Source: an uncultured Eubacteriales bacterium
Lineage (GTDB): Bacteria; Bacillota; Clostridia; Christensenellales; CAG-138
Length of the DNA stretch: 64,000 nt
Direction: 5' to 3'
Assembly: GCA_902765005.1 (NCBI GenBank)
Contig: CACWYB010000005.1
Location: forward strand, 39,844-103,843
The notes below the pieces were generated by a model. It had not been told where the DNA came from. It ran no database searches and saw only the letters and a list, made by a program, of their open reading frames with translations. Shown piece by piece: positions 9,976 to 57,718 of the stretch (position 1 is the first letter of the stretch; each line of letters opens with the position of its first letter). Position numbers and translations under genes: made by a program.

Positions 9976-9982
9976 GGCATTA

Positions 9983-29540: not shown

Positions 29541-30461
29541 TTACAGGTTGAACTGCTTGGTGATGATGTCCACGATCTCCTGGCCGATCCGCTTCTGGGC
29601 CTCCACAGTGGAAGCGCCGATGTGCGGCGTGCAGGACACCATGGGGTGGCTGTAGAGAGCCTTGTTCTGGGCGGGCTCGGAGGCGTACACGTCCAGGCCC
29701 GCGGCCCGGACCTTGCCGGACTCCAGGGCGGCCAAGAGGGCGTTCTCGTCCAGGTTGGCGCCGCGGCTGGTGTTGATGATGCACACGCCGTCCTTCATCT
29801 TGGCGATGGTGTCCGCGTTGATGATGGCGCCGCCATCCACAGCGGGGGCATGGACGCTGATGAAGTCGGATTCCTTGAGCAGCTCATCCATCTCCACATA
29901 GGGGATGCCCAGCTGATCCTCGATGCCGTCGATGTGGTAGATATCGAAGGCAATGACCTTCATGCCGATGGCCTTGGCCATGACGCCCAGGTGCTGGCCG
30001 ATGCGGCCGAAGCCGATGATGCCCAGGGTCTTGCCCTGCAGCTCGATACCCTTGGCGTAGGCTTTCTTCTCCCACTTGTCCTCCCGCATGGTGTGACCGG
30101 CGATAGAGAGGAAGCGGGCGCAGGCGAACATATGGCCCATGGCGAGCTCGGCCACGGACTGGGAGCTGGCCCGGGGGGTGTTGCGGACGGTGATGCCGTT
30201 CTCCTCGGCGTACTTCACGTCGATGTTGTCCACGCCCACGCCGCCGCGGATGACCAGCTTCAGCTTGCCGGCTTCCTTGGCCGCGTCAATATGGGGCACC
30301 CGCACCTTGGTGGCGGAGCGGACCACGAGCACGTCGTAGTTCTTCACCGCATCCTTCAGGGCTTCGGGATCATAAAACTGCTGATCAACCTGGCAGCCCT
30401 TGGCTTCCAGCGCGGCCACCGCGCCCTTTTCCATACCGTCAGACGCAAGAATCTTGATCAT
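29541..30461 (-). CDS. serA: D-3-phosphoglycerate dehydrogenase, short form
   Basis: 306 residues from ATG 30461 (AAGGAGGTTTGGAC upstream). NAD-binding motif TLGIIGFGRIGQHLGVMAKA, catalytic region GGVGVDNIDV and the Arg/Glu/His set in NTSRGANLDENALL and HPMVSCTPHIGAST. It lacks the C-terminal ACT domain, so serine feedback through ACT is not expected. Oxidises 3-phosphoglycerate to 3-phosphohydroxypyruvate. Follows serC by 12 bases on the minus strand. Confidence 0.93.
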   Translation of the reverse strand: MIKILASDGMEKGAVAALEAKGCQVDQQFYDPEALKDAVKNYDVLVVRSATKVRVPHIDAAKEAGKLKLVIRGGVGVDNIDVKYAEENGITVRNTPRASSQSVAELAMGHMFACARFLSIAGHTMREDKWEKKAYAKGIELQGKTLGIIGFGRIGQHLGVMAKAIGMKVIAFDIYHIDGIEDQLGIPYVEMDELLKESDFISVHAPAVDGGAIINADTIAKMKDGVCIINTSRGANLDENALLAALESGKVRAAGLDVYASEPAQNKALYSHPMVSCTPHIGASTVEAQKRIGQEIVDIITKQFNL

Positions 30462-30473
30462 GTCCAAACCTCC

Positions 30474-31562
30474 TTATGCGTTTTCCGCTTCGTACTTCTT
30501 GAGGAATTCCACCAGAGCCTCCACGCCTTCGATGGGCATAGCGTTGTAGATGGAGGCGCGCAGACCGCCCACGCTCTTGTGGCCCTTCAGGTTCTCAAAG
30601 CCGGCCGCCTTGGTGGCCGCCACCACAGCAGCGTCCTTGTCCTTGTCGCCGGTGATGAAGGGCACGTTCATGAGGGAGCGATCCTTCTTCTCCACGGTGC
30701 CGTAGAACAGCTTGGAAGAATCCAGGAAGTCGTACATGACCTTGGCCTTGGCTTCGTTCTTCTTGGCCATGGCCTCGAGACCGCCGTTGGCGAGCAGGTA
30801 CTTGAAGACCTTGCCGCAGACGTAGATGGCCCAGCAGTTGGGGGTGTTGTACATGCTGCCGTTCTTGGAATGGGTGTCGTACCGGAGATAGATGGGGGTC
30901 TTGGGATCGATATCCTCGCGGATCAGATCCTCGCGGATGATCACGATCGCCAGGCCCGCGGGACCCACGTTCTTCTGCACGCCGCCGTAGATGAGGCCGT
31001 AGTCCGCCACATTGCAGGGCTTGGAAAGGAACATGGAGCTCTGGTCGGACACCAGGATCTTGCCCTTGGTGTTGGGCAGCTGCTGATAGGTGGTGCCGTA
31101 GATGGTCTCGTTCTCGCAGATGTAGACGTAATCCGCGTCGTCGTCGATGGGCAGATCGGACACATCGGGGATGTAGGAGAAGTTCTTGTCCTCGCTGGAG
31201 GCGATCACGTTCACCTTGCCGTACTTCTTGGCTTCGGCGGCGGCCTTCTTGGACCAGGAACCGGTGACGATGTAATCGAACACGCCGTTCTTGCACAGGT
31301 TCAGGGGGATAGCGGAGAACTGCAGCGTGGCGCCGCCCTGGATGAAGAGCACCTTGTAGTTGTCGGGAATGTTCATCAGCGTGCGAAGATCGGCCTCCGC
31401 CTCGTCGATGATCTGCTGATAGACCTTGGACCTGTGGGACATCTCCATGACGCACATGCCGCTGCCGCGGTAGTTCATCATCTCATCCCGGATCTCCTCC
31501 AAAACAGGCTCCGGCATGATGGCAGGACCGGCGGAAAAGTTGTACACACGACCGTATTTCAT
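30474..31562 (-). CDS. serC: Phosphoserine aminotransferase
   Basis: 362 residues, start MKYGRVYNFSAGPAIMPEPV. The PLP lysine is in YGGVQKNVGPAGLAIVIIRE and substrate-phosphate residues in GSWSKKAAAEAKKYG. Converts 3-phosphohydroxypyruvate to O-phosphoserine with glutamate. The ribosome site is CAGGAGG. It lies 27 bases after the threonine-synthase-like gene, and no serB phosphatase is nearby. Confidence 0.96.
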   Translation of the reverse strand: MKYGRVYNFSAGPAIMPEPVLEEIRDEMMNYRGSGMCVMEMSHRSKVYQQIIDEAEADLRTLMNIPDNYKVLFIQGGATLQFSAIPLNLCKNGVFDYIVTGSWSKKAAAEAKKYGKVNVIASSEDKNFSYIPDVSDLPIDDDADYVYICENETIYGTTYQQLPNTKGKILVSDQSSMFLSKPCNVADYGLIYGGVQKNVGPAGLAIVIIREDLIREDIDPKTPIYLRYDTHSKNGSMYNTPNCWAIYVCGKVFKYLLANGGLEAMAKKNEAKAKVMYDFLDSSKLFYGTVEKKDRSLMNVPFITGDKDKDAAVVAATKAAGFENLKGHKSVGGLRASIYNAMPIEGVEALVEFLKKYEAENA

Positions 31563-31589
31563 GAAAAAACCTCCTGTTGAATTAGATTC

Positions 31590-32831
31590 CTAATGTAGTA
31601 TACCACTTTTTTCCAACGCGTCTATACTTGGCGCACAAATATATGGTTTTCCGGCGGCCTTCAGGGCGTTGGCCGTGTCCTTGAGGCCGCTGCCCGTGCT
31701 GATGACGGTGACGGTCTCGTTGGAACGGATGATCCCCTGCTCCACCGCCGCCTTCACGCCGGCTGTGGCCGTGGCCCCGGCGGGCTCGGAGAACACGCCT
31801 TCGTTCCGGCCCAACAGCCGCATGGCGTTCAGGATATCGTCGTCGGAAACGGCGATCCAGCGGCCGTCGGAGGCGTAGACCGCCCGCTGAGCCTTCTTCG
31901 GGTTCCGGGGCACGCCCACGGAGATGGAGTCTGCCAGGGTCTCCTCGGGGGTGGGCACCAGCTCATGGCCGGGGACCTTATCTGCGTTGACGAAGGGGCA
32001 GCAGCCCGTGGACTGGACCCCCAGGATCCGGGGAATCCGGTCGATGAGGCCCAGCTCATAGAGATCCTTGAAGCCGGTGTAGACCCCGCCGATGGTGCAG
32101 CCGTCGCCTACGGAGCAGGCCACCCAGTCGGTGACCCGGAAGTTCAGCTGCTCGGCGATCTCCATGGCCACGGTCTTCTTGCCCTCGCTCATGACCGGGT
32201 TGATGCCCGCGTTCCGGTTGTACCAGCCGTACTTCTCGATGGCGGCCCGGCTCAGCTCGAAGGTCTGCTCGTAGTCCCCATCCACCACCACCAGCTTGGC
32301 GCCGAAGATCATCAGCTGGGCCACCTTCCCCTGGGGCGCCCGCTTGGGCACGAAGATGACGGCCTTCAGGCCCATCCGGGCGGCGCTCCCCGCGCAGGAG
32401 GAGGCCGCGTTGCCCGTGGAGGAGCAGGAGATGGTGTCGTAGCCCAGCTCAATGGCCTTGGCCACCGCCACCCCGGACGCCCGGTCCTTCAGGGAGGCGG
32501 TGGGGTTGATGCCGTCGTCCTTGATGAACAGGGCCTTCACGCCCAGCTCATCCCGCAATTTCTTGGATTCGTAGAGAGGAGACCAGCCGATGCGCAGGAA
32601 CCGGCTCACGTCCGTGGTGTCCGCCACGGGCATGAGGGCCCGGTACCGCCACATGCTGTTGTCCCGGTTCGCCGCCAGAGCCTCCCGGGTCAGGACCTTT
32701 TTCACCTCGCCGTAGTCATAGACGATGTCCAGGATACCCTTCTCCCCGCAGTGGGGGCAGGTGTACAGCTCGGGTCCAAAGGGGAACTCCTTCCCGCAGA
32801 TGGTGCAGCGATAGCCTAATACCCGCTTCAT
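31590..32831 (-). CDS. Threonine-synthase-like PLP enzyme in purine-catabolic cluster
   Basis: 413 residues. N-terminal zinc ribbon CTIC...CPHC (residues about 9-33), then a fold-type-II PLP core: lysine in NPTASLKDRAS, PLP-phosphate and Asn loop SSTGNAASSCAG, and C-terminal GSGLKDTANALK. This is the ThrC family, whose members make threonine from O-phosphohomoserine or related products from O-phosphoserine. No homoserine kinase or dehydrogenase is near; the gene lies between ygeW-side genes and serC-serA. A role in the purine/diaminopropionate branch is therefore inferred rather than threonine synthesis. Starts 5 bases after the next PLP gene. Confidence 0.75.
   Translation of the reverse strand: MKRVLGYRCTICGKEFPFGPELYTCPHCGEKGILDIVYDYGEVKKVLTREALAANRDNSMWRYRALMPVADTTDVSRFLRIGWSPLYESKKLRDELGVKALFIKDDGINPTASLKDRASGVAVAKAIELGYDTISCSSTGNAASSCAGSAARMGLKAVIFVPKRAPQGKVAQLMIFGAKLVVVDGDYEQTFELSRAAIEKYGWYNRNAGINPVMSEGKKTVAMEIAEQLNFRVTDWVACSVGDGCTIGGVYTGFKDLYELGLIDRIPRILGVQSTGCCPFVNADKVPGHELVPTPEETLADSISVGVPRNPKKAQRAVYASDGRWIAVSDDDILNAMRLLGRNEGVFSEPAGATATAGVKAAVEQGIIRSNETVTVISTGSGLKDTANALKAAGKPYICAPSIDALEKSGILH
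31597..31624 (-). promoter_or_regulatory. Possible serC-serA promoter inside the upstream coding end
   Basis: Minus strand TAGACG (31619-31624), 16 bases, TATACT (31597-31602). The -35 box matches weakly, so serC-serA may be partly cotranscribed with the genes upstream. Confidence 0.35.
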
Positions 32832-32836
32832 GGCCC

Positions 32837-34309
32837 TTACAGCTCGGCCAGTACGCCGGTCTTCTCGTTGAAGGCGTTGATGAGCTTGTCCAGATCCGCA
32901 GCCTGCTCGTGCATGTCGGTCCAGTAATGCTCATCATACCACTGCTGGTTGATCTCCTCGTAGGTCTTGCCCTGCTGCTCCACCCAGGTGTAGTACTTCA
33001 GGTTGTGGATGCGCTTGCGATCCTGATAGGAGAGCTCCAGCATGGCGTCGGTGCGCACGCCCTGCAGATGGCGGGCAAAGTCGTAGGCCGCGGCCATTTC
33101 GGAGTAGGCGCCCTGCTGCTCGTCCAGTTCTTTGATGCGGCTCTCGTACATGATGGCGGAGTCGGTGCACACGGTGGCCACCACGTCATGCTCGGTGAGC
33201 TCGTAGTATTTGGCCATCTTGATGCAGCAGAGCATGTTGGCGATGCCGGAGATGCCCATGAGGGACAGCTTCTCCACGGTCTCGGCGGGCACGCCCGCTT
33301 CCTCGATGAGGTACTTCTTGCCTTCGGGGCTGTTGAAGAGCCTGAGCAGGTTCTGGGAATCGTCGTCGTCGATGTCGATGACCATGTCGGTGTTCTTCAC
33401 GTTGTGGATCCAGGGCACATGCTTGTCGCCGATGCCTTCGATCCGGTGGCCGCCGAAGCCGTTCTCCAGCAGCGTGGGGCACTGGAGGGCCTCGCCCACA
33501 GCCAGCTTCAGGTGGGGGTACTTCTCCTTCAGAAGGTCGCCCGCGCTCATGGTGCCGGCGGAACCGCTGGTGAAGCAGGCGCCCGCCAGACGGTCGCCCT
33601 CGCCCTTGATGCTCTCGAAGGCTTCGGCGATGGCGTTGCCGGTGACCTGATAATGCCACACGCAGTTGCCCATCTCCTCGAACTGATTGAAGATGACCAC
33701 GTCGTCACGGGTGCGGCGAAGCTCCCAGGTCTTGTCGAAGATCTCCTTCACGTTGCTCTCGCACCCGGGGGTGGCGATGACTTCGCCGGCGATCTTGGAG
33801 AGCCAGTCGAAGCGCTCCTTGCTCATCTCGGCGGGCAGGATGGCCACGCTCTGGCAGGCCAGGAGCTTGCTGTTGAAAGCGCCGCCCCGGCAGTAGTTGC
33901 CGGTGGAGGGCCAAACGGCCTTGTTGTAGGTGGCGTCGAACTGGCCGGTGACCAGGCGGGGCACCAGGCACCCGTAGGAGGCGCCCACCTTGTGGCAGCC
34001 CGTGGGGAACCACTTGCCGATGAGGCAGATGATCCGGGCCTTCACGCCGGTGAGAGAGCTGGGCAGCTCGATGAAGTTCACGGGGCCGTACTGGCCGCCG
34101 TCCATGACGGGCTCATTGTGCCAGGTGATGCGGAACAGGTTCAGGGGGTTCACATCCCACAGGCCCACGTTCTTCAGGGCTTCCTTCACCTTCTCGGGGA
34201 CCAGTTCGGGGTGCTTCATCTGCTCGAAGGTGGGCAGGATGATGTGGTTCTTGCGAGCCACCTCGATGTTTCTTTCCAGAGCTTCCGGATGGATGGTAAG
34301 ATCGATCAT
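32837..34309 (-). CDS. Fold-type-II PLP-dependent enzyme of unassigned reaction
   Basis: 490 residues, longer than cysteine synthase (~310) or YgeX (~400). The likely PLP lysine is in PTGCHKVGASYG, the Asn loop in WPSTGNYCRGGAFN, and the phosphate loop in SGSAGTMSAGDLL. The N-terminal 90 residues and a C-terminal helical extension of ~130 residues (LTEHDVVATVCTDSAIMYES, then HNLKYYTWVEQQGKTYEEIN) are outside the minimal fold. I cannot assign a substrate. It is encoded between ygeW and the ThrC-like gene on the minus strand. It may stand in for YgeX (2,3-diaminopropionate ammonia-lyase) but does not look like it in length or motif. Confidence 0.7.
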   Translation of the reverse strand: MIDLTIHPEALERNIEVARKNHIILPTFEQMKHPELVPEKVKEALKNVGLWDVNPLNLFRITWHNEPVMDGGQYGPVNFIELPSSLTGVKARIICLIGKWFPTGCHKVGASYGCLVPRLVTGQFDATYNKAVWPSTGNYCRGGAFNSKLLACQSVAILPAEMSKERFDWLSKIAGEVIATPGCESNVKEIFDKTWELRRTRDDVVIFNQFEEMGNCVWHYQVTGNAIAEAFESIKGEGDRLAGACFTSGSAGTMSAGDLLKEKYPHLKLAVGEALQCPTLLENGFGGHRIEGIGDKHVPWIHNVKNTDMVIDIDDDDSQNLLRLFNSPEGKKYLIEEAGVPAETVEKLSLMGISGIANMLCCIKMAKYYELTEHDVVATVCTDSAIMYESRIKELDEQQGAYSEMAAAYDFARHLQGVRTDAMLELSYQDRKRIHNLKYYTWVEQQGKTYEEINQQWYDEHYWTDMHEQAADLDKLINAFNEKTGVLAEL

Positions 34310-34333
34310 ATTTGTATTCCTTTCAAAAATGTA

Positions 34334-35548
34334 TTAGGCGTTCCAGCGCTTGGTGTTCTTCTCTTCCAGCTCCAGGAGCTTCTTGGCGGGGTCCTTCACC
34401 TTGGCCAGGAAGATCATGGCCGCGATGATGTAGGGCTTGAAGGAGGCCTGCTTGTAGAGGGGATCCCGATAGCGGTCGAAGACGGAGGCGGCCACCTCGC
34501 CGGCTTCGCAGGACACATCCGTGATGTCCGCGGGCAGGCAATGCAGATACAGGGCCTTGCCGTCCTTCGTGAGCTTCATCATCTCCTCGGTGCACTCCCA
34601 GTCCTTGTGCTCCGCGTTCTGGGCAAGGAGCCGCTTTTCGAGCGCCTTGATGCCCTCGATGTCGCCCTTGCCGTAGAGCTCGGTCCGCTCCTCCATGGCC
34701 TTGAAGGGGGCCCAGGACTTGGGATAGACGATGTCCGCGTCCTTGAAGGCTTCCTTCATGTCGTGGGTGATGGTGAACTTGGCGCCGGACTTCTTGCAGT
34801 TCTCCTCCGCCACCTTCACCACGTCGTCCATGATCTCGTAGCCCTCGGGATAGGCGAGGGTCACGTCCATGCCGAAGCGGGTGAACAGGCCCGCCACGCC
34901 CTGGGGCACGGACAGTGGCTTGCCGTAGGAGGGGCTGTAGGCCCAGGTCATGGCCACCTTCTTGCCCTTGAGGTTTTGGATGGCTTCATCCAGGTCGTCG
35001 CTTTCACCCAGGGTGTGGATGCAGTGGAGCATGTCCGCCATGCACTGGGTGGGATGGTCGATGTCGCACTGGAGGTTGACCAGCGTGGGCTTCTGCTCCA
35101 GCACGCCCGCCTTGTTGCCCTCGGTGACGGCGTTCACCACGTTGTGCATGTAGGTATTGCCCTTGCCGATGTACATGTCGTCCCGGATGCCGATGACGTC
35201 CGCCATGAAGGAGATCATGTTGGCGGTCTCCCGCACGGTTTCGCCATGGGCGATCTGGCTCTTGCCCTCGTCCAGATCCTGGACCTCGATGCCCAGCAGG
35301 TTGCAGGCGGAGGCGAAGGAGAACCGGGTGCGGGTGGAGTTGTCGCGGAACAGGGAGATGCCCAGGCCGGAGTCGAAGATCTTGGTGGAGATGTTGTTCT
35401 CCCGGAGGTGACGGAGGGCGTCGGCCACCGTGAACACCGCCGCGATCTCATCGTCGGTCTTTTCCCAGGTCAGGAAAAAGTCGCCATTGTACATGTTGTC
35501 GAACTTCAGCTGGTTCAGTTTGTCGGTGTACTTCTTAACGTTGCTCAT
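34334..35548 (-). CDS. ygeW: Knotted carbamoyltransferase YgeW
   Basis: 404 residues. Carbamoyl-phosphate motif STRTRFSFASACNLLG (about 75-90), HGETVRETANMISF, DIDHPTQCMADML and YLHCLPADITDVSC. Belongs to the aspartate/ornithine carbamoyltransferase fold; YgeW is tied to anaerobic purine catabolism in E. coli and gut Firmicutes, though its natural acceptor is not settled. A carbamoyltransferase run in reverse would yield carbamoyl phosphate for ATP formation by a carbamate kinase, which is not in this window. Confidence 0.92.
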   Translation of the reverse strand: MSNVKKYTDKLNQLKFDNMYNGDFFLTWEKTDDEIAAVFTVADALRHLRENNISTKIFDSGLGISLFRDNSTRTRFSFASACNLLGIEVQDLDEGKSQIAHGETVRETANMISFMADVIGIRDDMYIGKGNTYMHNVVNAVTEGNKAGVLEQKPTLVNLQCDIDHPTQCMADMLHCIHTLGESDDLDEAIQNLKGKKVAMTWAYSPSYGKPLSVPQGVAGLFTRFGMDVTLAYPEGYEIMDDVVKVAEENCKKSGAKFTITHDMKEAFKDADIVYPKSWAPFKAMEERTELYGKGDIEGIKALEKRLLAQNAEHKDWECTEEMMKLTKDGKALYLHCLPADITDVSCEAGEVAASVFDRYRDPLYKQASFKPYIIAAMIFLAKVKDPAKKLLELEEKNTKRWNA

Positions 35549-35582
35549 AGGACCTCCTGTAAAAAATGTATTGGTGGGTTGC

Positions 35583-36959
35583 TCAGTCGTTGGCGTACTT
35601 GGTGTCGGTCTTCCCCGCCCGGTACACGGTCACGTCCCCGGAGGCGTTCTCGGGATGGTAGTTCATGGGCACGGCGGCGTAGAGGGCCGCGCAGGTGACC
35701 AGGTCCTGCTTCCAGGTGATCTCGTTGGGCGCATGGGCCTGAGACTCGGCGCCGGGGCCGAAGCCCACGCAGGGGATGCCATAGCGGCCCTGGATGGACA
35801 CGCCGTTGGTGGAGAAGGTCCACTTGTCGATGAGGGGCCGATGGCGCTTGTCCATGGCGGTGGGGCTGCCGATGCGCTCCTCACCGAAGAGGGCCTTATG
35901 GGCGTCGGCCAGGGCCTGCACATGGGCCGCGGTTTCCTTGTTGATCCAGGTGGGGAAATAGCATTCGGTCTCGTAGGTGAGGCCGGTCCAGGCGGGCCGG
36001 TCGTACATGTACATGGAGACCTTCACATCCTTGGCGTACTTCTTGCAGGCGGGCAGGTTGCGGATCTCCTCCAGGCAGGAATCCCAGGTTTCGCCGGCGG
36101 TCATGCGGCGGTCCAGGGACACGGCGCAGGAATCGGCCACGGCGCAGCGGGAAGGCGAGGTGTAGAAGATCTGGGAGGCGGTGATGGTGCCCCGGCCCAG
36201 GAAGCGGGCGTCCTCATAGTGCTCGGGATTGTACTTGGGGTCCAGCATCTTCACCAGGCCCTTGATCTCGTCCGCATCGGTGGCGGAGTTCTCGTTGAGG
36301 GCACGGACATCCTGGAGGATATCGGCCATCTTGTAGATGGCGTTGTCGCCCCGCTCGGGCGCGGAGCCGTGGCAGGACACGCCGTGGACGTCCACCCGGA
36401 TCTCCATCCGGCCCCGATGGCCCCGATAGATGCCGCCGTCCGTGGGCTCCGTGGAGACCACGAACTCGGGGGTGATGCCGTCTTCCTTATGGATATACTG
36501 CCAGCAAAGGCCGTCGCAGTCCTCCTCCTGCACGGAGGCCACCACCAGGATCTTATAGCCATCGGGGATGAGGTCAAGGTCCTTCATGATCTTGGCGCCG
36601 TAGACCGCGGACACCACGCCGCCCTCCTGGTCGGAGCCGCCGCGGCCGTAGATGATGTCGTCCGTCTCATAGCCCTGGTAGGGGTCATGCTCCCAGTTGG
36701 CGAGGTTGCCGATGCCAACGGTGTCGATGTGGCCGTCGAAGGCGATGATCTTCTCCCCCGTGCCCATCCAGCCCAGGGCGTTGCCCTCGGGGTCGATCTC
36801 GGCTTTGTCGAAACCCAGCGCTTCCATCTCCTGGATGGTGCGCTTCACCACGCCCTCCTCCTCGCAGCTCTCGCTGGGGATGGCGATGAGGTCCCGGAGA
36901 AACTTGGTCATGGCCGGCAGATAACCTTGGGCCGCTTCTTTGATCTTTGTATAGTCCAT
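35583..36959 (-). CDS. ygeY: YgeY-family M20 hydrolase
   Basis: 458 residues. Zinc ligands of the M20 family: [20 protein letters not shown], catalytic Glu pair in [12 protein letters not shown], and HAPNEI near the end. Annotated elsewhere as a selenium-metabolism-linked hydrolase, a C-N bond hydrolase in the purine-degradation pathway. First gene of the minus-strand arm, with its promoter 30 bases upstream. Confidence 0.92.
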
Positions 36960-36990
36960 AGCATCCTCCTACCTGTATATTTTCACTTGC

Positions 36991-37018
36991 AGTATATCAC
37001 ACCTGCGGCGAAATGCAA
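36991..37018 (-). promoter_or_regulatory. Promoter of the ygeY arm
   Basis: Minus strand TTGCAT (37013-37018), 16-base spacer, TATACT (36991-36996), 31 bases before ygeY. Confidence 0.7.
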
Positions 37019-37029
37019 TGCGAAAATCC

Positions 37030-37060
37030 AATTATTTTTAGGTAAACCAAAATTATTTTT
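37030..37060. repeat. Direct AATTATTTTT repeats in the divergent control region
   Basis: AATTATTTTT at 37030-37039 and 37051-37060, 21 bases apart (two helical turns), each preceded by CCA or CCAA. It lies between the two divergent promoters of the purine cluster, a natural place for a common operator. Confidence 0.5.
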
Positions 37061-37076
37061 GTTTTCCCCGTCCATC

Positions 37077-37105
37077 TTGAATTCAGGCCTTGCATGTGAT
37101 AAACT
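37077..37105 (+). promoter_or_regulatory. Promoter of the ssnA-ygfK-xdhD arm
   Basis: TTGAAT (37077-37082), 17 bases, TAAACT (37100-37105). The transcript would have a leader of about 107 bases before ssnA; a short purine-rich run and the ribosome site are the only elements I can identify in it. Confidence 0.6.
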
Positions 37106-37219
37106 ATGCACATAAAATGAATACTCTTCCGGCTGTAAGGGAGTGCTTCGCGCGCGGGCTGTCAAACCATGTGTTTGCTGCCGCGCTGTTTTTTCAGAAC
37201 CATCAAAAAGGAGGCTGCC

Positions 37220-38560
37220 ATGATTCTTATCACAAACGGAACAGTCATCACCCGCGACCAGGAACGGCCCTTTTTCCCGGACGGCGCCGTGCTGGTGGAC
37301 GGCCGGCTCATAAAGGTCATCGGCCCCCGGCAGGAGCTGGAAGCGGCCTATCCGGAGGCGGAGCGGGTGGACGCCCACAGGGGCGTGATCATGCCCGCGT
37401 TCATCAACGTCCATTCCCATATCTACAGCGCCCTTGCGAGGGGCCTTTCCATCAAGGGCTTCAACCCCACCAACTTCTATGAGATCCTGGACGGCCAGTG
37501 GTGGGCCATGGATCGGAACCTGACGCTGGAGGGCACCCGGGCCAGCGCCTACACCACCATCATCGACGGCATCAAGACCGGCTGCACCACCATCTTCGAC
37601 CACCACGCCAGCTACAAGGCCATCACCGGCTCCCTCTTTGAGATCGAGAAGGTGGCCCGCGAGCTGGGCATCCGGGCGTGCCTGTGCTACGAGGTATCCG
37701 AGCGGGACGGAGAAAGGAAGTGCGACGAGGCTATCGAGGAAAACGCCAGCTTCATCACCCACTGCGAGAAGGATCCCGATCCCATGATCGCCGCCATGTT
37801 CGGCGGCCACGCCCTGTTCACCATCTCCGATAAAACATTTGAGAAGATGCAGAAGGCCAACAACGGCCGCACGGGCTACCACATCCACGTGTCCGAGGGC
37901 CTGAACGACGTGTACGACTCGGCCCTGAACTACGGCACCCGGCCCGTGAATCGGCTCCTCAACAACGGCATCCTGGGCGAAAAGACCATGCTGGGCCACT
38001 GCATCCATGTGAACAGCGGGGAGATGGACATCATCCGGGACACGGGCACCATGGTCTGCAACAACGCGGAGAGCAACATGGGCAACGCCGTGGGCTGCTC
38101 CCCCATCCGCCAGATGATGGAAAAGGGCATCCTGGTGGGCATGGGCACGGACAGCTACACCTTTGACATGCTGGAAGCCTTGAAGGTGAGCCTGATCATC
38201 CAGCGGCACAACGCCTGCATGCCCAATGTGGCCTGGAGCGAGGTGACGAAGATGCTCTTTGAAAACAACGCCAGGATCGCCGCCAAATACTTCCCCGACC
38301 GGCTGGGCAAGCTGAAGGAGGGCTACGCCGCGGACATCATCGTCATGGACTACAAGCCCTTCTCCCCCTTCTCGGACAAGAACATCGACGGCCATATGAT
38401 CTTCGGCATGACCGGGCGGCAGTGCGAGTTCACCATGTGCGCCGGCCGCATCCTCATGCAGGATCGGAAGCTGGTGGGCATCGACGAGGAGGCCATCAAC
38501 GCCCGCACCATGGAGGAGAGCATCAAGCTTTGGAAGGCTCTCGACAGCTACAACGGATGA
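37220..38560 (+). CDS. ssnA: Putative aminohydrolase SsnA
   Basis: 446 residues from ATG 37220 (AAAAGGAGGCTGCC upstream). Amidohydrolase/cytosine-deaminase-type metal enzyme: NVHSHIYSALARG metal motif near residue 67, GHCIHVNSGEMD, and the late Asp in VGMGTDSYTFDM. In purine-catabolic clusters SsnA is thought to deaminate or hydrolyse a ring intermediate such as guanine-like compounds. First gene of the plus-strand arm, followed after 18 bases by ygfK. Confidence 0.92.
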   Translation: MILITNGTVITRDQERPFFPDGAVLVDGRLIKVIGPRQELEAAYPEAERVDAHRGVIMPAFINVHSHIYSALARGLSIKGFNPTNFYEILDGQWWAMDRNLTLEGTRASAYTTIIDGIKTGCTTIFDHHASYKAITGSLFEIEKVARELGIRACLCYEVSERDGERKCDEAIEENASFITHCEKDPDPMIAAMFGGHALFTISDKTFEKMQKANNGRTGYHIHVSEGLNDVYDSALNYGTRPVNRLLNNGILGEKTMLGHCIHVNSGEMDIIRDTGTMVCNNAESNMGNAVGCSPIRQMMEKGILVGMGTDSYTFDMLEALKVSLIIQRHNACMPNVAWSEVTKMLFENNARIAAKYFPDRLGKLKEGYAADIIVMDYKPFSPFSDKNIDGHMIFGMTGRQCEFTMCAGRILMQDRKLVGIDEEAINARTMEESIKLWKALDSYNG

Positions 38561-38578
38561 CCCAGGAGGAAAATGACC

Positions 38579-41527
38579 ATGAGTGAAAGAATGAATCCCA
38601 TCTCCTTCGACAAGCTCCTTGCCCGGGTCCTGGCGGAATACGCCCAGCAGGGCACCGTTTTCGGCGCGCATGCCCGGTTTGAGGCGGAACGGCCCGGCCT
38701 CCCCCTCTTCGGCGGGCGGATCGAGACCCCCTTCGGCCCCGCCGCCGGCCCCAACACCCAGCTGTCGGAGAACATCATCGCCGGCTACTTTACCGGCGCC
38801 CGGTTCTTTGAGCTCAAGACCGTGCAGAAGATGGACGGCGAGGATCTGGCCAAGTGCATCAACCGGCCCTGCATCAAGGCGGACGACGAGGGCTACAACT
38901 GCGAATGGTCCACTGAGCTCACCGTGCCCCAGGCCTTCACGGAGTATGTGAACGCCTATGTGATCATCAAGATCATCGCCCGGCTCTGGCACCTGGGGGA
39001 CCCCAACGGGTTCATGTTCAACATGTCCGTGGGCTACGACCTGGCCGGGATACAGACGGAAAAGATCGACACCTTCATCGAGGGCATGAAGGACGCCTCC
39101 CCCACCCCCGCCTTCCAAAACGCCATCGCCGAAGCCAAGAAGCAGCTGCCGGAGCTGGCCGATTATATCGACGCCATCGACCCCCATATCTGCACCAGCG
39201 TGACCATCTCCACCCTCCACGGCTGCCCGCCTCAGGAGATCGAGAGCATCGCCAGCTATCTTATCACCCAAAAGAAGCTCCACACCCTGGTCAAGTGCAA
39301 CCCCACCATCCTAGGCTACGATTTTGCCAGGCAGCGCCTGGATGAGGCCGGGTTCGACTACGTCGCCTTCGACGACCACCATTTCAGGGAGGACTTGCAG
39401 TATACGGACGCGGTGCCCATGTTCCGCCGGCTGTTGAAGCTGGCGGCGGAAAACGGCGTTTCCTTCGGGCTCAAGCTCAGCAACACCTGCCCTGTGGACG
39501 TGAAGGCCGGGGAGCTGCCCAGCGAGGAGATGTACATGAGCGGCAAGTCGCTGTACCTGCTCACCATCGAGATGGCCGCCCGCCTGGCGGAGGCGTTCGA
39601 CGGGAAGCTGCGGCTGTCCTTCTCCGGCGGCGCCGACGCCTTCAACATCAAGGCCCTCTTCCGCGCCGGCATTTGGCCCATCACCGTGGCCACCACCATT
39701 CTCAAGCCCGGTGGCTACGACCGGTTCTACGAGCTGGCCAAGGAGATCTCCCGCTGCGCCTACAAGCCCTTCACCGCCGTGAACCCGGCGGCGGTCCGCG
39801 CCCTGTCCGACAAGGCGGCCCGGGATCCCCACCACAGAAAACCCATCAAGCCCCTGCCCAGCCGGAAGAACGGAGAGCAGGTGCCCCTGCTGAGCTGCTT
39901 TATCGCCCCCTGCCAGGGCGGCTGCCCCATCCATCAGGACATTCCCGGATACCTGGCTCTGAACGAGAAGGGCAAGTTCCCGGAATCCCTGAAGCTCATC
40001 ACCGAGAAGAACGCCCTGCCCTTCATCACCGGCACCATCTGCGCCCATCCCTGCATGGGCCGCTGCACCCGGAACTTCTATGAGCAGAGCGTCAACATCC
40101 GCAAGGCCAAGCTCACCGCCGCCCGGAAGGGCTTCGGCGCCCTCATGGCCCGGGGCGTGCAGAAGGAGCAGCTGACAGAAGCCAAGGTGGCCATCATCGG
40201 CGGCGGCCCCGCGGGCATGGCGGCGGCCTTCTACCTCACCCGCGCCGGGGCAAAGGTCACGGTGTTCGAGAAGGAGCAGACCCTGGGCGGCACGGTCCGC
40301 CATGTGATCCCCTCCTTCCGCATCCCCGCCGCGGCCATCGACCGGGACGTGAAGCTGATCTCCTCCCTGGGGGCCACCTTCGTGCTGGGCCAGCCCGCCC
40401 CCTCTTTGGAGGAGCTGAAGAAGGACTTTGACTTCATCCTGCTGGCCGTGGGCGCCCAGAAGGCGAACCGGCTGAACATCGGCGGGAAGGAATACAACGC
40501 CATCGCCTTTTTGAAGGCCCTGAAGGCCGGGGAGCCGGTGGATCTGGGCGAGCACGTGGCCGTCATCGGCGCCGGCAACACGGCCATGGACTGCGCGCGG
40601 GCGGCCCTGCGGGTGCCGGGGGTGAAGGACGTGTCCATCGTCTATCGGCGTACCAAGAAGTATATGCCCGCCGACGAGGAGGAGATGCTCCTGGCCCTGA
40701 AGGAGGGCGTCCAGTTTAAGGAACTGCTGGCCCCGGTGAAGGCGGACGGCAAGAGCCTGCTCTGCCACAGGATGGTTCTGGGCGAGCCGGACGCCTCCGG
40801 CCGCCGCAGCCCGGTGGACACGGGTGAGGAAGTCTTGCTCCCCTGCTCCGCCCTCATTGCCTCCCTGGGCGAGAAGGTGGACACGGACCTGCTCCTCTCC
40901 TACGGCGCGGCAGTCAACGAGAAGGGCCGCCCCGCCCTGCAGAACGGGAACGTCTTCGTATTGGGCGACGCCCGGCGTGGCCCCGCCACCGTGGTGGAAG
41001 CCATGGCGGACGCCCTGGCCGCCACGGAAGCCATCGTGGGCGCGGCCCGGGCCTACGAGCTGCCCCGTGGCGCGGAGCTGGGCGAAGGGAAGCTCATGGA
41101 TCGCAAGAGCCGGCTGAAGCTCCCCTGCGAGCCGGAGGAGCAGTGCATGCACTGCAACGAGATCTGCGAGAACTGCGTGTCCGTGTGCCCCAATCGGGCC
41201 AACGTGGCCCTGCGGGTCCCCGGCAAAAAGGAGCCCCAGATCCTGCACCTGGATTACCTGTGCAACGAGTGCGGCAACTGCGCCTCCTTCTGCCCCTATG
41301 CCTCCGCCCCCTACAAGGACAAGTTCACCCTGTTTGAGAACGAGGCGGATTTCGCGGACAGCGAAAACCAGGGCTTCTGCGTGCTGAACGAAAAGAAAAA
41401 GCAGGTGAAGGTCCGCCTGGCCGGCACGGAAAAGAAGTATGACCTGTCCAAGGCAAACGATCTGGATGCGGACATCGAGCTGCTCATACTGACGGTACTG
41501 AAGGACTACCCGTATCTGCTGGTATAA
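38579..41527 (+). CDS. ygfK: YgfK: flavin and iron-sulfur oxidoreductase of the purine cluster
   Basis: 982 residues from ATG 38579 (an ATG 6 bases earlier sits too close to AGGAGGA). Three modules: a dihydroorotate-dehydrogenase-like domain (1-~430; GPAAGPNTQLSENI, PGGYDRFYELAKE); a glutamate-synthase-small-subunit-like module with an iron-sulfur N-end (CQGGCPIHQDIPGYL, CAHPCMGRCTRNF), FAD motif IIGGGPAGMAAAFYLTRAG and NADPH motif IGAGNTAMDCARAA; and a C-terminal ferredoxin (CEICVSVCPNRANV-type, CNECGNCASFCPY). It resembles E. coli YgfK closely. Named 'putative selenate reductase' in databases; here it more likely moves electrons between the hydroxylase and NADPH or ring reduction. Confidence 0.95.
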   Translation: MSERMNPISFDKLLARVLAEYAQQGTVFGAHARFEAERPGLPLFGGRIETPFGPAAGPNTQLSENIIAGYFTGARFFELKTVQKMDGEDLAKCINRPCIKADDEGYNCEWSTELTVPQAFTEYVNAYVIIKIIARLWHLGDPNGFMFNMSVGYDLAGIQTEKIDTFIEGMKDASPTPAFQNAIAEAKKQLPELADYIDAIDPHICTSVTISTLHGCPPQEIESIASYLITQKKLHTLVKCNPTILGYDFARQRLDEAGFDYVAFDDHHFREDLQYTDAVPMFRRLLKLAAENGVSFGLKLSNTCPVDVKAGELPSEEMYMSGKSLYLLTIEMAARLAEAFDGKLRLSFSGGADAFNIKALFRAGIWPITVATTILKPGGYDRFYELAKEISRCAYKPFTAVNPAAVRALSDKAARDPHHRKPIKPLPSRKNGEQVPLLSCFIAPCQGGCPIHQDIPGYLALNEKGKFPESLKLITEKNALPFITGTICAHPCMGRCTRNFYEQSVNIRKAKLTAARKGFGALMARGVQKEQLTEAKVAIIGGGPAGMAAAFYLTRAGAKVTVFEKEQTLGGTVRHVIPSFRIPAAAIDRDVKLISSLGATFVLGQPAPSLEELKKDFDFILLAVGAQKANRLNIGGKEYNAIAFLKALKAGEPVDLGEHVAVIGAGNTAMDCARAALRVPGVKDVSIVYRRTKKYMPADEEEMLLALKEGVQFKELLAPVKADGKSLLCHRMVLGEPDASGRRSPVDTGEEVLLPCSALIASLGEKVDTDLLLSYGAAVNEKGRPALQNGNVFVLGDARRGPATVVEAMADALAATEAIVGAARAYELPRGAELGEGKLMDRKSRLKLPCEPEEQCMHCNEICENCVSVCPNRANVALRVPGKKEPQILHLDYLCNECGNCASFCPYASAPYKDKFTLFENEADFADSENQGFCVLNEKKKQVKVRLAGTEKKYDLSKANDLDADIELLILTVLKDYPYLLV

Positions 41528-41536
41528 AGGAGGAGT

Positions 41537-44116
<2,580 letters not shown>

Positions 44117-44117
44117 C

Positions 44118-44591
44118 ATGGCGGATCTGCTCTTCCCAAAGGCGGCTTTGGTGGCCTGCAACGGCGGGTGCCGAAATGAAAGCTGCCCCTATGGCTGCAT
44201 CGGCTGCGGCATGTGCGTCGCCATCTGCCCCTTTGATGCCATCGCTATCAACAAAAACGGCGTGGCGGAAGTGAATGAATCGAAGTGCCAGGGCTGCGGG
44301 GCCTGTGTCACGGAATGCCCCCAGGGGATCATCCGCCTGCATGAGGCGGGCAGCCCCATTGTGGTGAAGTGCGCCAATCGGGATTCGGGCAAGGCAGCCC
44401 GGGCGGCCTGCCAGGTGTCCTGCATCGGCTGCGGCATCTGCGAAAAAGCCTGCCCCTCCGGCGCGGCCAGGGTCGAGGACAACCTGTCCTCCATCGACGA
44501 GGCGCTATGCCTCGCCTGCGGCATGTGCGCGGTGAAGTGCCCCCGGCACGCCATCTATGATCTGAGGGGCGTGCTGACGAAAATAAACTAA
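44118..44591 (+). CDS. Four-cluster [4Fe-4S] ferredoxin
   Basis: 157 residues with four CxxCxxCxxxC motifs: CIGCGMCVAICP, CQGCGACVTECP, CIGCGICEKACP, CLACGMCAVKCP, so up to four [4Fe-4S] clusters, plus an N-terminal cysteine group (CNGGCRNESC). The arrangement recalls RnfB-like ferredoxins. Starts 1 base after xdhD with AAGGAGG. Likely electron carrier for XdhD and YgfK. Confidence 0.88.
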   Translation: MADLLFPKAALVACNGGCRNESCPYGCIGCGMCVAICPFDAIAINKNGVAEVNESKCQGCGACVTECPQGIIRLHEAGSPIVVKCANRDSGKAARAACQVSCIGCGICEKACPSGAARVEDNLSSIDEALCLACGMCAVKCPRHAIYDLRGVLTKIN

Positions 44592-44765: not shown

Positions 44766-46085
44766 TTATTTTTCCAGCAGACGAGCTTCCAGATAGTAGC
44801 GCTTCTCGGCGGCCTCGCCCATGGAGAAGGTCTTGCGGGGCAGTGCGCCGTCGAAGACCACGGTGGAGAACAGCTCGCCCTTCTGCATGGTGGGGAGCAG
44901 GAAGCCCACGGCCTTGGGCTTTTTGGACAGGTCCTTCACCACGTCGTCCCCGTGGATGTAGTCCACCTCGCCGCCCAGGTCCTTGAGGACCGCATCGATG
45001 GCGTTCTGCAGAGTGCCCACCGCCAGCTGGGCCGCAGGACCGCTGACGACGAAGGTGCCCTCCACGTCCCCATAGAAGAAGGGGATGACGTGGGTTTCGC
45101 CGCCCTCGGCCGCCTTCGCTTCGGGCAGGATCTCCACGGAACCATTCTGCTCGGAGAGTTTCTTTTGCAGGGCGTCGATGAGGGTCTTCCCCTCCACTCC
45201 GAAGACCACCCGATGGATGGGCTCGAAGATGATGCCCTCGTCATGGACGTTGTTGAGCTCGATGAGGGCGTAGCGGGCGGGATGATCGGCCCGCTCCGCC
45301 TCGGGCAGGGTTGCCTTGATCTTCTCCCAGTTGGCCTTGGCCGTGGCCAGGCTGTGGTTGCCGTCGCCCATGGCGAAGAGGAGCACGGGGTGATCGCCGT
45401 ATTTCTTCTCGAAGGCGGCCTTGTCCGCCAGCTTGGTGAGGCCCGCGATGACGGCGTTCACGTCGCCTTCCTCCGCCACCAGGCGCCCTGAGATGTGGCC
45501 GCCGCCCAGCATGAGGTCCGTGTCATAAAGGCAGGGAAGCGTCGCCGCCTTCCTGACCAGGGGCTCGATGACGGTCCGGTCCGGATCGTCGATGAGGACC
45601 AGAATGTGAGGCAGCTCCACAGCGGCCCCCTCCCGGATCTTCAGCCGGGGCGGGATGCGGGAGACGATGGTCCCCTCAGTGGCCCGGATCAGGGTGCCGG
45701 AACCCTTGGAGTAGTCGTACTCCTCCAGATCCAGGGCCATAACCAGGCCGTGGCGAGTGTTGCCGTTGGCGGTGCGCTCCACCAGCACGAAGCCCTGGGG
45801 CTGCTTCTGGAGGATGCCCTTTTTGAGGTATTCCTTCATGTTGGCCTTGATGGCGGCGATGCGCTCCGGCTCATCGGGGCTGCCCAGATACGCCTCCGGC
45901 AGAATGAGGTCCAGCGTGGAGGGGGCGTCGCCGATGATGGCGCGAGCCTGCTCCCAATACTCCTTCTGGGAGGTGAACTGATCGCAGGCCACCACGGCCC
46001 ACTTGCTCATGTCCGTCCCTTTGGGGGGAAGCATCACTTCCGGGACCAGGACGCCGATGGAATTGGTATACTTCTTTTCTTTCAT
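44766..46085 (-). CDS. DUF1015 family protein
   Basis: 439 residues from ATG 46085, chosen since the promoter lies just upstream. Typical DUF1015 features: IGVLVPEVMLPPKGTDMSKW at the N-terminus, MGDGNHSLATAKANWEKIK and HPARYALIELNNVHDEGIIF in the middle. The family is tied by context in other genomes to amino-acid and serine metabolism; its biochemical role is unproven. Monocistronic with promoter and shared terminator. Confidence 0.88.
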   Translation of the reverse strand: MKEKKYTNSIGVLVPEVMLPPKGTDMSKWAVVACDQFTSQKEYWEQARAIIGDAPSTLDLILPEAYLGSPDEPERIAAIKANMKEYLKKGILQKQPQGFVLVERTANGNTRHGLVMALDLEEYDYSKGSGTLIRATEGTIVSRIPPRLKIREGAAVELPHILVLIDDPDRTVIEPLVRKAATLPCLYDTDLMLGGGHISGRLVAEEGDVNAVIAGLTKLADKAAFEKKYGDHPVLLFAMGDGNHSLATAKANWEKIKATLPEAERADHPARYALIELNNVHDEGIIFEPIHRVVFGVEGKTLIDALQKKLSEQNGSVEILPEAKAAEGGETHVIPFFYGDVEGTFVVSGPAAQLAVGTLQNAIDAVLKDLGGEVDYIHGDDVVKDLSKKPKAVGFLLPTMQKGELFSTVVFDGALPRKTFSMGEAAEKRYYLEARLLEK

Positions 46086-46137
46086 GATTGCTGACCTCAC
46101 TTCATTTTGATAAAATGCAGGTGTAGACCTTACGGGT

Positions 46138-46166
46138 ATTGTACAATCCTCACATTCTTTTTGCAA
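46138..46166 (-). promoter_or_regulatory. DUF1015 gene promoter
   Basis: Minus strand TTGCAA (46161-46166), 17 bases, TACAAT (46138-46143). Confidence 0.72.
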
Positions 46167-46215
46167 CCTTTTCTTGCCCTGGCCGGTATTATATACGAAA
46201 GGAAGGAGGCGTCCC

Positions 46216-47211
46216 ATGAAGAAGCTGTCGCTGCTGAGCATTGCCCACTTTTTGGTGGACCTATGCTGCGCCGCCCTGTTCTTCGGATGGCTCAACGGGG
46301 GACAAAGCTGGTGGCTCTGCATGGTGGTCTACAACGGCTGCGCCTTCGCTCTGCAGCTCCAGCTGGGGCTCCTGGCCGACGGAGCGAACCGGAACCTACT
46401 GTTTGCGGCGGGCGGCTGCGCCCTGGTGGGGGCGGGCTTCCTGCTTGCCGCCTCTCCCCTCTTGGCCGCCACGACGGCGGGGATCGGCAACGGACTCTTT
46501 CACGTGGGCGGCGGCCTGGAGGTGCTGAACGACAGCGAACGGGCGGCGCCTCTGGGGGTGTTCGTGTCCCCCGGGGCGGTGGGGCTGTACCTGGGCACGG
46601 CCTACGCGGCGGTCTTCGCCCGGCATGTGTGGTTGGCCCCTCTCCTGCTGATCCTTTTAGGGACGGCGCTGCTGCTCTTTGGACGCCGGACCCAGGCCTT
46701 GGTTTCCCGCAACGCGCCCCTGTCCCTCACCCTTCCGAAGGGGGGCGGGGTGGCTCTACTCTGCCTGTTTCTGGTGGTGGCCCTGCGCTCCCTGCTGGGA
46801 GGCGCTTTCTCAACCGGGATACCCACGCTGCCCGGCCTGGTGCCCGTGCTGTGCCTGGCCTTTGGCAAGGCGGCGGGCGGCTTCTGCGCCGATCGGCTGG
46901 GGCTGAAGCGAACGGCCCTCCTCTCCCTGGGGCTCTCCTGCCTGCTGTTGCTGCTGCCCCGAGGGTATGTCACCCTTGCGGCCCTGTTCCTCTTCAACAT
47001 GACCATGCCCCTGACTTTGTTCGGGGCGGCGAGGCTCCTAAATGGCGCTAAGGGCACGGCCTTCGGGCTTTTGACCTGCGCCCTGTTCCTGGGGATGGTC
47101 CCCCGGTTCCTGGGGCTCCCGCTGGACCTGCCGGGCTTTGGCTGGGCGGGGCTGGCGCTCCTTTCTTTGGGACTGCTGCTGATGGGCCTTAGGCGGGAGG
47201 CGGAAGGATGA
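46216..47211 (+). CDS. Major-facilitator-like membrane permease
   Basis: 331 residues with roughly ten hydrophobic segments, starting MKKLSLLSIAHFLVDLCCAA, a common MFS N-terminus. GGRCADRLG-like loop (GGFCADRLGLKRTA) near residue 230 matches the MFS cytoplasmic-loop signature. Substrate unknown. AAGGAGGCGTCCC precedes ATG. Overlaps the next gene by 4 bases. Confidence 0.75.
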   Translation: MKKLSLLSIAHFLVDLCCAALFFGWLNGGQSWWLCMVVYNGCAFALQLQLGLLADGANRNLLFAAGGCALVGAGFLLAASPLLAATTAGIGNGLFHVGGGLEVLNDSERAAPLGVFVSPGAVGLYLGTAYAAVFARHVWLAPLLLILLGTALLLFGRRTQALVSRNAPLSLTLPKGGGVALLCLFLVVALRSLLGGAFSTGIPTLPGLVPVLCLAFGKAAGGFCADRLGLKRTALLSLGLSCLLLLLPRGYVTLAALFLFNMTMPLTLFGAARLLNGAKGTAFGLLTCALFLGMVPRFLGLPLDLPGFGWAGLALLSLGLLLMGLRREAEG

Positions 47212-53941: not shown

Positions 53942-54934
53942 ATGGCAGTTGATCTGAAAGGTCGTTCCTTCTTAACCATCATGGACTTCACCCCCGAAGA
54001 AATCCGGTATATGCTGGATCTGGCAAAGCAGCTCAAGGCCCAGAAAAAGGCAGGCATCAAGGGCTCCTCCTTGGTGGGCAAAAACATCGTGCTTTTGTTT
54101 GAAAAGACCTCCACCCGTACCCGCTGCGCCTTTGAGGTGGCCGCCATGGACGAGGGAGCCGGCGTCACGTTCCTGGATTCCAAGTCCTCCCAGATGGGCA
54201 AGAAGGAGTCCCTGGCCGACACCGCCAAGGTTTTGGGCCGGATGTTCGACGGCATCGAGTACCGGGGCTTCGACCAGAAGGTGGTGGAAGATCTGATGAA
54301 ATACTCCGGCGTGCCCGTGTACAACGGCCTCACGGACGTGGATCACCCCACCCAGGCCCTGGCGGACATCCTTACGTTGGAGGAGAACGTGAATAAGCCC
54401 CTGAACCAGTGCAAGCTGGTGTTCTGCGGCGACACGAGGAACAACGTGGCCTACTGCCTCATGTATATCTGCTCCAAGCTGGGCATCCACTACTGCGGCT
54501 ACGGCCCCAAGGCCCTTGCCCCCGCCCCCGAGGTCATGGCTCGCTGCCAGGCGGCCGCCAAGGAGAGCGGCGCCATCATCGAAGTGAGCGACGATCCCGC
54601 CATCGTGGAGGGCGCCGACGCCCTGTACACCGACATCTGGGCCTCCATGGGCGAGGAGGCGCTGATCCCGGAGCGGGTGAAGCTGCTGACCCCCTTCAAG
54701 GTCACCAAGGAGCTCATGGAGCGGACCGGGAACGACAAGTGCATCTTCCTCCACTGCCTCCCCAGCTTCCACGATTTCAACACCACCATGGCCAGCGAGC
54801 AGATGAAGCTGGGCTACGATATCCGGGAGGTCACGGACGACGTGTTCCTGTCCGAGAACAGCAAGGTCTTCGATGAGGCCGAGAACCGGCTCCACACCAT
54901 CAAGGCCGTGCTGGTGGCCACCCTGGGCAAATAA
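53942..54934 (+). CDS. argF: Ornithine carbamoyltransferase
   Basis: 330 residues. Carbamoyl-phosphate motif KTSTRTRCAFEVAAM, DHPTQALADILT, active-site FLHCLPSFHD and WASMGEE. Makes citrulline from ornithine in synthesis, or ornithine plus carbamoyl phosphate when run from citrulline. Sitting first in an ornithine-degradation operon, it probably works in the catabolic direction (arcB role); sequence alone cannot decide. Confidence 0.95.
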   Translation: MAVDLKGRSFLTIMDFTPEEIRYMLDLAKQLKAQKKAGIKGSSLVGKNIVLLFEKTSTRTRCAFEVAAMDEGAGVTFLDSKSSQMGKKESLADTAKVLGRMFDGIEYRGFDQKVVEDLMKYSGVPVYNGLTDVDHPTQALADILTLEENVNKPLNQCKLVFCGDTRNNVAYCLMYICSKLGIHYCGYGPKALAPAPEVMARCQAAAKESGAIIEVSDDPAIVEGADALYTDIWASMGEEALIPERVKLLTPFKVTKELMERTGNDKCIFLHCLPSFHDFNTTMASEQMKLGYDIREVTDDVFLSENSKVFDEAENRLHTIKAVLVATLGK

Positions 54935-54955
54935 CCAACGAATAAGGAGAACGGT

Positions 54956-56008: not shown

Positions 56009-56009
56009 T

Positions 56010-56312
56010 ATGGCGAAAAAAGGCGATTGGGTACGCATTCATCGGGTGATCCTTCAAGCCGACGAACGGACGGCGAACCTGCCGGAGGACACCCAAAAGG
56101 TGCCCTTCGAGATGTGGGTGAAGGGCCATCTGCTTTCTGACGGAGAGATCGGAGACGAGGTGGAGATCAAAACCGTTTCCGGGCGGAAGGAGCACGGGAC
56201 GCTGATCGAGGTGAACCCCCAGTTCGACGTGAACTTCGGCAGCTTTGTGCCGGAGATTTTGGAGATGGATGTGCGGCAGCGGACCGCCCTCTTCGGAAAG
56301 GAGGCGGAATGA
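56010..56312 (+). CDS. ortA: 2-amino-4-oxopentanoate thiolase subunit OrtA
   Basis: 100 residues from ATG 56010. Short subunit with KGDWVRIHRVILQADERT and VNPQFDVNFGSFVPEIL, as in clostridial OrtA. Pairs with OrtB. Overlaps ortB by 4 bases. Confidence 0.93.
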   Translation: MAKKGDWVRIHRVILQADERTANLPEDTQKVPFEMWVKGHLLSDGEIGDEVEIKTVSGRKEHGTLIEVNPQFDVNFGSFVPEILEMDVRQRTALFGKEAE

Positions 56313-57709: not shown

Positions 57710-57718
57710 AGGAGCGGT

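Follow-up and report, generated by a model that had tools for sequence, protein, structure and literature searches.

A 64,000-nucleotide stretch of contig CACWYB010000005.1 (assembly GCA_902765005.1), referred to here as the window, comes from a bacterium of the family CAG-138 whose source genome is 77% complete. It carries two enzymes dependent on pyridoxal phosphate (PLP) among genes for the reductive breakdown of uric acid. Six genes on the minus strand are at issue. The first two are ygeY, which encodes an M20 hydrolase (35583..36959; 619 bits with TIGR03526, cut-off 321.5, and 620 bits with NF009555, over the cut-off), and ygeW, which encodes a knotted carbamoyltransferase (34334..35548; TIGR03316, 762 bits, cut-off 500). 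They are followed by the two PLP enzymes, both of fold type II. One has 490 residues and belongs to the lineage of CysK and cystathionine beta-synthase (CBS), without passing any curated family (plp490; 32837..34309). The other is derived from threonine synthase (ThrC) and has zinc-ribbon-like cysteines near its N-terminus (thrCL; 31590..32831; TIGR00260, 202 bits, cut-off 167). The run ends with two facultative neighbors, the phosphoserine aminotransferase gene serC (30474..31562; TIGR01364, 490 bits, cut-off 443.6) and a serA-like gene with a TTG start for a short 3-phosphoglycerate dehydrogenase of 308 residues (29541..30467), which matches TIGR01327 (PGDH) at positions 1-299 only, with 317 bits, below the cut-off of 454. 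Each of these two is present once in the window. From ygeY to serA the gaps are 34, 24, 5, 27 and 6 bases, which bears out the single orientation and tight spacing noted in an earlier reading of the DNA letters (the sequence-only reading). The same order recurs in a genome of the same genus (L080) with 96-98% identity.

The divergent arm on the plus strand begins with ssnA, for an aminohydrolase (37169..38560; TIGR03314, 545 bits, cut-off 455). Next come ygfK, for the yanthine reductase of the published pathway (38573..41527; TIGR03315, 1248 bits, cut-off 835), and a gene for a homologue of selenium-dependent xanthine dehydrogenase (XDH), to which the role of XdhAC/XdhD may be assigned (41537..44116; TIGR03311, 1204 bits, cut-off 830). 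A 4Fe-4S ferredoxin-like protein with matches to Pfam Fer4 families closes the arm (44118..44591). SsnA, YgfK, the XDH homologue, YgeW and YgeY all exceed their curated cut-offs within 29541-44591, and ygeW and ygeY together with the plus-strand arm make up most of a reductive uric-acid cluster.

This pathway's enzymes, reported in 2025, have drawn interest in connection with gout and with probiotics that lower uric acid. Urate undergoes reduction to yanthine, which is in turn reduced and opened by YgfK and SsnA and then by HyuA to give 2,3-diureidopropionate. YgeW and YgeY take off the ureido groups, leaving 2,3-diaminopropionate (DAP) (PMC12507026; PMC12990295). PMC12507026 describes the chemistry for enzymes of E. 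coli and C. difficile: YgeW turns a ureido group into carbamoyl phosphate, YgeY carries out the ureido cleavage that gives DAP, and YgeX, named as the last enzyme, cleaves DAP to pyruvate and ammonia. It also states that the E. coli hydantoinase is D-stereospecific and that YgeX acts equally well on the two isomers of DAP. The sequence of the ureido cleavages is under debate (PMC12990295).

The set known from E. coli and C. difficile consists of XdhD, YgfK or UacX, SsnA, HyuA, YgeW or UacY, YgeY and YgeX. The window shares with it YgeW, YgeY, SsnA, YgfK, an XDH homologue and the divergent layout, but thrCL and plp490 stand in place of YgeX. In the source genome, incomplete as it is, YgeX (TIGR03528) was not found above cut-off; the best score, 32.6 bits against 532, belongs to thrCL, and plp490 is not among the matches listed. 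The two PLP enzymes do occupy the spot expected for YgeX, as had been noticed from the sequence. The cluster is a real, conserved variant of the recently solved pathway.

Co-occurrence was followed first within the family. Of 103 genomes, 69 have plp490 (E to 1e-40), 67 have ygeW (E to 1e-60) and 66 have thrCL (E to 1e-85). All three were present in 59 genomes and all absent from 31; 12 of the 13 with a partial set are less than 90% complete. At E 1e-60, two of the 103 have YgeX, and in one of these two it exceeds the cut-off. Only two genomes outside the genus of the window carry plp490 and ygeW on the same contig (G420, with about 13 kb between them, and G444, with about 70 kb), so the association holds even where the genes lie far from each other. 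Among 20 family regions read around plp490, those at contig ends being shorter than 20 kb, only the same-genus region has ygeW and ygeY next to plp490; thrCL lies in seven, and one more (L086) holds ssnA, ygfK and xdh. Joint presence and absence on this scale argues against a chance meeting here of two ordinary enzymes, a zinc-ribbon threonine synthase (thrCL) and a relative of cysteine synthase (plp490).

The pairing is also found outside the family. Ten plp490 regions were read from three other families of the class, and eight of them (L041-L043 and L045-L049, from families f26 and f45) hold thrCL and plp490 in the company of urate genes such as ygeY or ygeW; thrCL was not found in L044 and L050. 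The carbamoyltransferase of the f45 regions is divergent, about 32% identical, and a neighbor is a carbamate kinase by eye. A larger sample comprised the best 80 of at least 584 plp490 relatives, themselves part of at least 593 stretches from named genomes. It consequently leans toward close relatives of plp490, and it overlaps the family set (L144 appears to belong to G482, and L200 to G393). It includes Oscillibacter, Flavonifractor, Diplocloster, Treponema, Anaerolineae, Synergistaceae, Halanaerobiales and Bipolaricaulota. With presence called by BLAST above 150 bits, thrCL was found in 59 of these loci, ygeY in 32, carbamate kinase in 28, ygeW in 26 and the divergent carbamoyltransferase in 7. 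The corresponding counts were 14 for hydantoinase, 12 for XDH, 9 each for ssnA and ygfK, 7 for serC, 5 for YgeX and 4 for serA. Where both members of the pair are present they lie on the same strand and no more than 300 bases apart in 37 of 59 loci, and 52 of the 80 contain one or more purine or nucleoside-transport genes. Loci with the pair range from Clostridia to Chloroflexota. The arrangement, whose uniqueness to this genome had been raised as a point to check, is thus found in other families, in other phyla and in the same-genus locus L080, and its conservation across phyla again argues against chance placement.

Several other genes were seen near plp490. A regulator with YheO-like PAS_6 and HTH_22 domains (L168:7339-7992) belongs to a cluster of open reading frames (F6) present in 28 of the 80 loci. 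A gene of family F95 lies between thrCL and plp490 in the Chloroflexota loci L213 (9039-9971), L218 and L222, and the L213 copy matches glycosyltransferase-2. In L081, L082, L083, L089, L091 and L092, which come from several genera of the window's family, plp490, thrCL or both lie beside what appear by eye to be a BMP-type binding protein and a nucleoside ABC transporter. L050 holds a divergent plp490 homologue (9323-10702, about 32% identical) in a locus in which thrCL was not found and in a genome that has YgeX. Several recurrent families of open reading frames around plp490 without a Pfam match were taken to be antisense and dropped.

The relation to YgeX was examined in a sample of 391 genomes of Clostridia, 21 of which have ygeW. 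Among these 21, thirteen have YgeX only, six have plp490 only, two have neither (80-82% complete) and none has both (Fisher p 5e-4, kinship ignored). The distant plp490 homologues of G040, G095, G167 and G267 (33-41% identity) were left uncounted; none of these genomes is among the 21, and G040 has YgeX. A second comparison used 50 genomes with plp490 (L173-L222 from the named set of 80; one of them, G520, is apparently family genome G393). A thrCL of at least 44% identity is present in 44 and is absent or merely ThrC-like in six, a 34%-identical match in G539 not being counted. YgeX occurs in four of the six genomes without thrCL and in nine of the 44 with it (p 0.03), and Exilispira, which has neither, carries a 36%-identical thrCL-like gene in its plp490 locus. 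In these few genomes thrCL and YgeX look partly interchangeable while plp490 stays, a distribution by which thrCL would be the lyase and plp490 an accessory enzyme. A strict one-for-one replacement of YgeX was rejected, since YgeX and plp490 coexist in 13 of the 50 genomes and in 5 of the 80 loci.

The thrCL protein is recognizably related to ThrC. Its AlphaFold2 model (pLDDT 90) has ThrC as its best fold match. With ThrC of the short and zinc-ribbon types it shares the fold and the motifs TGN and GLKD, at about 35% identity, and it passes the broad Pfam family PF00291, while missing PRK08197 with 274 bits against 303. It differs in the replacement of two basic residues, in two new invariant aspartates and in a distribution that tracks ygeW. 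The 23 thrCL rows in a phylogenetic tree form one clade with support of 96/97, apart from the rows of short and long ThrC, YgeX and CysK/CysM; the tree holds no proven ThrC of the PRK08197 (zinc-ribbon) type, and the joins between groups are weak or long-branched. Phylogeny had been proposed as a check on the ThrC-like protein, and with the ThrC proteins sampled it does not cluster. None of the 23 rows keeps the arginine of NP[YF]R or the arginine or lysine of AI[KR]IG, and uncharged residues are found instead; Asp243 and Asp301, in the numbering of the window's thrCL, are invariant in all 23. Both basic residues are kept in the four short ThrC sequences compared, two of them solved. We take the two basic positions to be those that bind the substrate phosphate in ThrC. 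Their loss, judged from the alignment, would speak against O-phosphoserine or O-phosphohomoserine as the substrate of thrCL, and together with the gain of the aspartates it would suit an amino, that is cationic, leaving group, as in DAP.

As a fold-II PLP enzyme thrCL resembles YgeX and may fill the same slot in the pathway; YgeX alternates with plp490 in the 21 Clostridia with ygeW. From YgeX, thrCL differs in forming a separate clade. The chance placement of two ordinary enzymes draws on the score of thrCL above the TIGR00260 cut-off and on the best solved-structure matches, which are ThrC for thrCL and beta-cyanoalanine synthase, CBS and CysK for plp490. Against it stand the separate clade, the co-distribution in the family, the pairing across phyla and the presence in the source genome of a separate long ThrC (L251) and a CysK; we consider it unlikely. 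A housekeeping role for thrCL as ThrC is likewise made less likely by its clade, its residue exchanges, the long ThrC and its co-distribution with ygeW. Relatives of thrCL pass TIGR00260, and that of L215 passes PRK08197 also, hence they are probably labelled threonine synthase in NCBIfam annotation.

The second enzyme, plp490, is built of additional N- and C-terminal parts around a CysK/CBS core. Residues from about 80 to 390 align with CBS, the protein has invariant motifs, K107 aligns as the probable Schiff-base lysine, and the segment HRIEGIGDK resembles HKIQGIGAG of CysK. Its length of 490 residues and its terminal parts set it apart from CysK and CBS, whose cut-offs it does not reach: the best curated score is 79 bits against 351 for cysK, with 58 against 510 for CBS and 25.5 against 35 for Pfam PALP. 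The AlphaFold2 model has a mean pLDDT of 88, and farther down the list of its structural matches come SbnA (ranks 37 and 45) and O-ureidoserine synthase (rank 38).

SbnA and cysteate synthase use O-phosphoserine. In a biosynthetic branch along the lines of the sequence-only reading, SerA and SerC would supply O-phosphoserine, from which the ThrC-like or the 490-residue enzyme would make DAP in the manner of SbnA. Immediately after thrCL come serC and serA, separated from it and from each other by 27 and 6 bases, and SbnA is among the structural matches of plp490. Both proteins share fold type II with SbnA and cysteate synthase but score far under the cut-offs: plp490 reaches 29.4 bits against 350 for SbnA and 28.7 against 600 for the cysteate synthase CapA, and thrCL reaches 89.5 against 324.9 with the cysteate synthase model. 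In the family the pair tracks ygeW, and among the 20 regions read serC and serA stand beside plp490 only in the window's genus. YgeW, YgeY, SsnA, YgfK and XDH make up a pathway that is degradative in the published account (PMC12507026), so the cluster more probably consumes DAP than makes it. The biosynthetic branch is very unlikely. Of the claims made from the sequence, the action of YgeW and YgeY on a carbamoylated form of DAP agrees with the published pathway, although in the degradative and not the biosynthetic direction. That the ThrC-like enzyme makes or consumes a compound of the DAP type fares well as to consuming and poorly as to making, given the published course from urate through DAP to pyruvate. 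The supply of O-phosphoserine by SerA and SerC is not borne out in the form proposed, these genes being no fixed part of the locus (serC in 7 and serA in 4 of the 80), and the lost basic residues speak against the use of O-phosphoserine by thrCL.

On balance, thrCL and plp490 probably make up a different last module for the reductive uric-acid pathway, one that often occurs without YgeX and that disposes of DAP. XDH, YgfK, SsnA and a hydantoinase would open the purine, and YgeW and YgeY would strip two ureido groups to give DAP, as we infer from the published enzymes. The pair most likely consumes DAP, and the reactions of its members are hypotheses. The protein thrCL would most likely eliminate the beta-amino group of L-DAP, giving aminoacrylate and from it pyruvate and ammonia. 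More speculatively, plp490 might carry out an accessory step on DAP, either by handling the D isomer or by exchanging the beta-amine for water to give serine. It is also conceivable that the two enzymes work ahead of DAP in the pathway, their substrate being a ureido amino acid (albizziin or 3-amino-2-ureidopropionate); they might then serve as an epimerase, for instance, or as a lyase that releases urea. The match of plp490 to O-ureidoserine synthase and the debated order of ureido cleavage (PMC12990295) are consistent with this; YgeY lies in the plp490 locus in 32 of the 80 cases, however, and DAP should still form there. We consider this alternative quite unlikely.

The serine genes point to another alternative, that of salvage. 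In this scheme the pair would turn DAP into serine, with water, or into O-phosphoserine, with phosphate. Serine hydroxymethyltransferase (SHMT) or SerC and SerA would take these products on, toward glycine and one-carbon units or toward 3-phosphoglycerate, and more energy would be conserved than by direct deamination. serC was found near plp490 in 7 of the 80 loci (L153, L167, L179, L180, L188, L197 and L199), where about 0.5 would be expected (a rough Poisson estimate with one serC per 2.4-Mb genome, kinship ignored). Gene orders vary among the seven; serA or DUF1015 is present in some, and L180 and L199 have serC without serA. A partial serC follows the pair in other same-genus loci. In two Synergistaceae loci a gene for SHMT separates thrCL from plp490 (L215:8719-9978 and L221:4201-5451), and in L085 and L087 such a gene adjoins plp490, which belongs to the serine-handling CysK/CBS lineage. 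The recurrence of serC and the SHMT genes near the pair keep a serine-family product or substrate alive as a rival, and a serine or O-phosphoserine branch is possible. Yet serC was not found in 73 of the 80 loci, six of the seven that have it are from Lachnospiraceae, so that the events may be few, and the basic residues aligned with the presumed phosphate site of ThrC are gone from thrCL. SHMT exceeds the chance expectation only weakly (2 of 80, P 0.09), and L085 and L087 come from one genus of the window's family. Salvage of this kind is doubtful, and so, to the same degree, is the broader proposal that the pair is a second, widespread ending yielding serine or O-phosphoserine and linked through SHMT or reversed SerC and SerA to serine, one-carbon and lower-glycolytic metabolism.

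A DUF1015 protein is encoded on the minus strand of the window at 44766-46322, and relatives 50-55% identical to it come directly after serC-serA in L188 and L197, where the gene run is plp490-serC-serA-DUF1015. That it stands in for SerB is a guess; regarding a role as serine kinase or phosphatase, no match to a solved structure was found, nor, in the literature searched, any paper joining DUF1015 with serine.

A number of observations weigh against a DAP-disposing ending formed by thrCL and plp490. Among the 13 plp490 genomes with YgeX, 11 have it above cut-off and nine also have thrCL, and thrCL is present in three of the five loci that hold both YgeX and plp490, so the pair does not everywhere simply take the place of YgeX. 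The 13 Clostridia of the YgeX type cope without plp490, which leaves the need for this protein unexplained. The score of thrCL over the TIGR00260 cut-off and that of its L215 relative over PRK08197 fit ThrC, and the aspartate of the TDGN motif, presumably catalytic in YgeX, is absent from both plp490 and thrCL. No tested purine or transport gene was found in 28 of the 80 loci, nine of which are shorter than 10 kb and eight longer than 20 kb. The 64-kb window itself has no relative of HyuA (queries E. coli HyuA and the hydantoinase of L042) or of carbamate kinase at E 1e-5, in a search confined to the window. Related genomes do not count as independent events, and, as the family genomes are related, the Fisher values overstate the number of such events.

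A literature search found no title or abstract on a PLP pair replacing YgeX; the main Clostridium paper lay outside that search. The gene-neighborhood survey of PMC12507026 flags YgeX by PF00291, and since thrCL also passes this family, a survey based on it cannot distinguish the two endings. Bacteria with the pair only would escape a screen aimed at YgeX itself. If the proposal is correct, two enzyme families that are now unnamed or labelled threonine synthase gain a testable role, and the fate of urate carbon, as pyruvate or serine, is open to direct experiment. Relatives of plp490 are present in the cultured strains Oscillibacter ruminantium GH1, Flavonifractor spp. and Diplocloster modestus; YgeX is also present in the Diplocloster locus and in two Flavonifractor genomes tested (L189 and L207).

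The same window holds a cluster for ornithine fermentation on the plus strand at 53942-62911. An ornithine-racemase-like protein scores 399.8 bits, below the cut-off of 480, and an OraE-like aminomutase and a MutL-like protein were named by eye. An OTC-like protein (TIGR00658, 371 bits, cut-off 281), Ord (486.7 bits, cut-off 400) and OrtB (779.7 bits, cut-off 550) all exceed their cut-offs.

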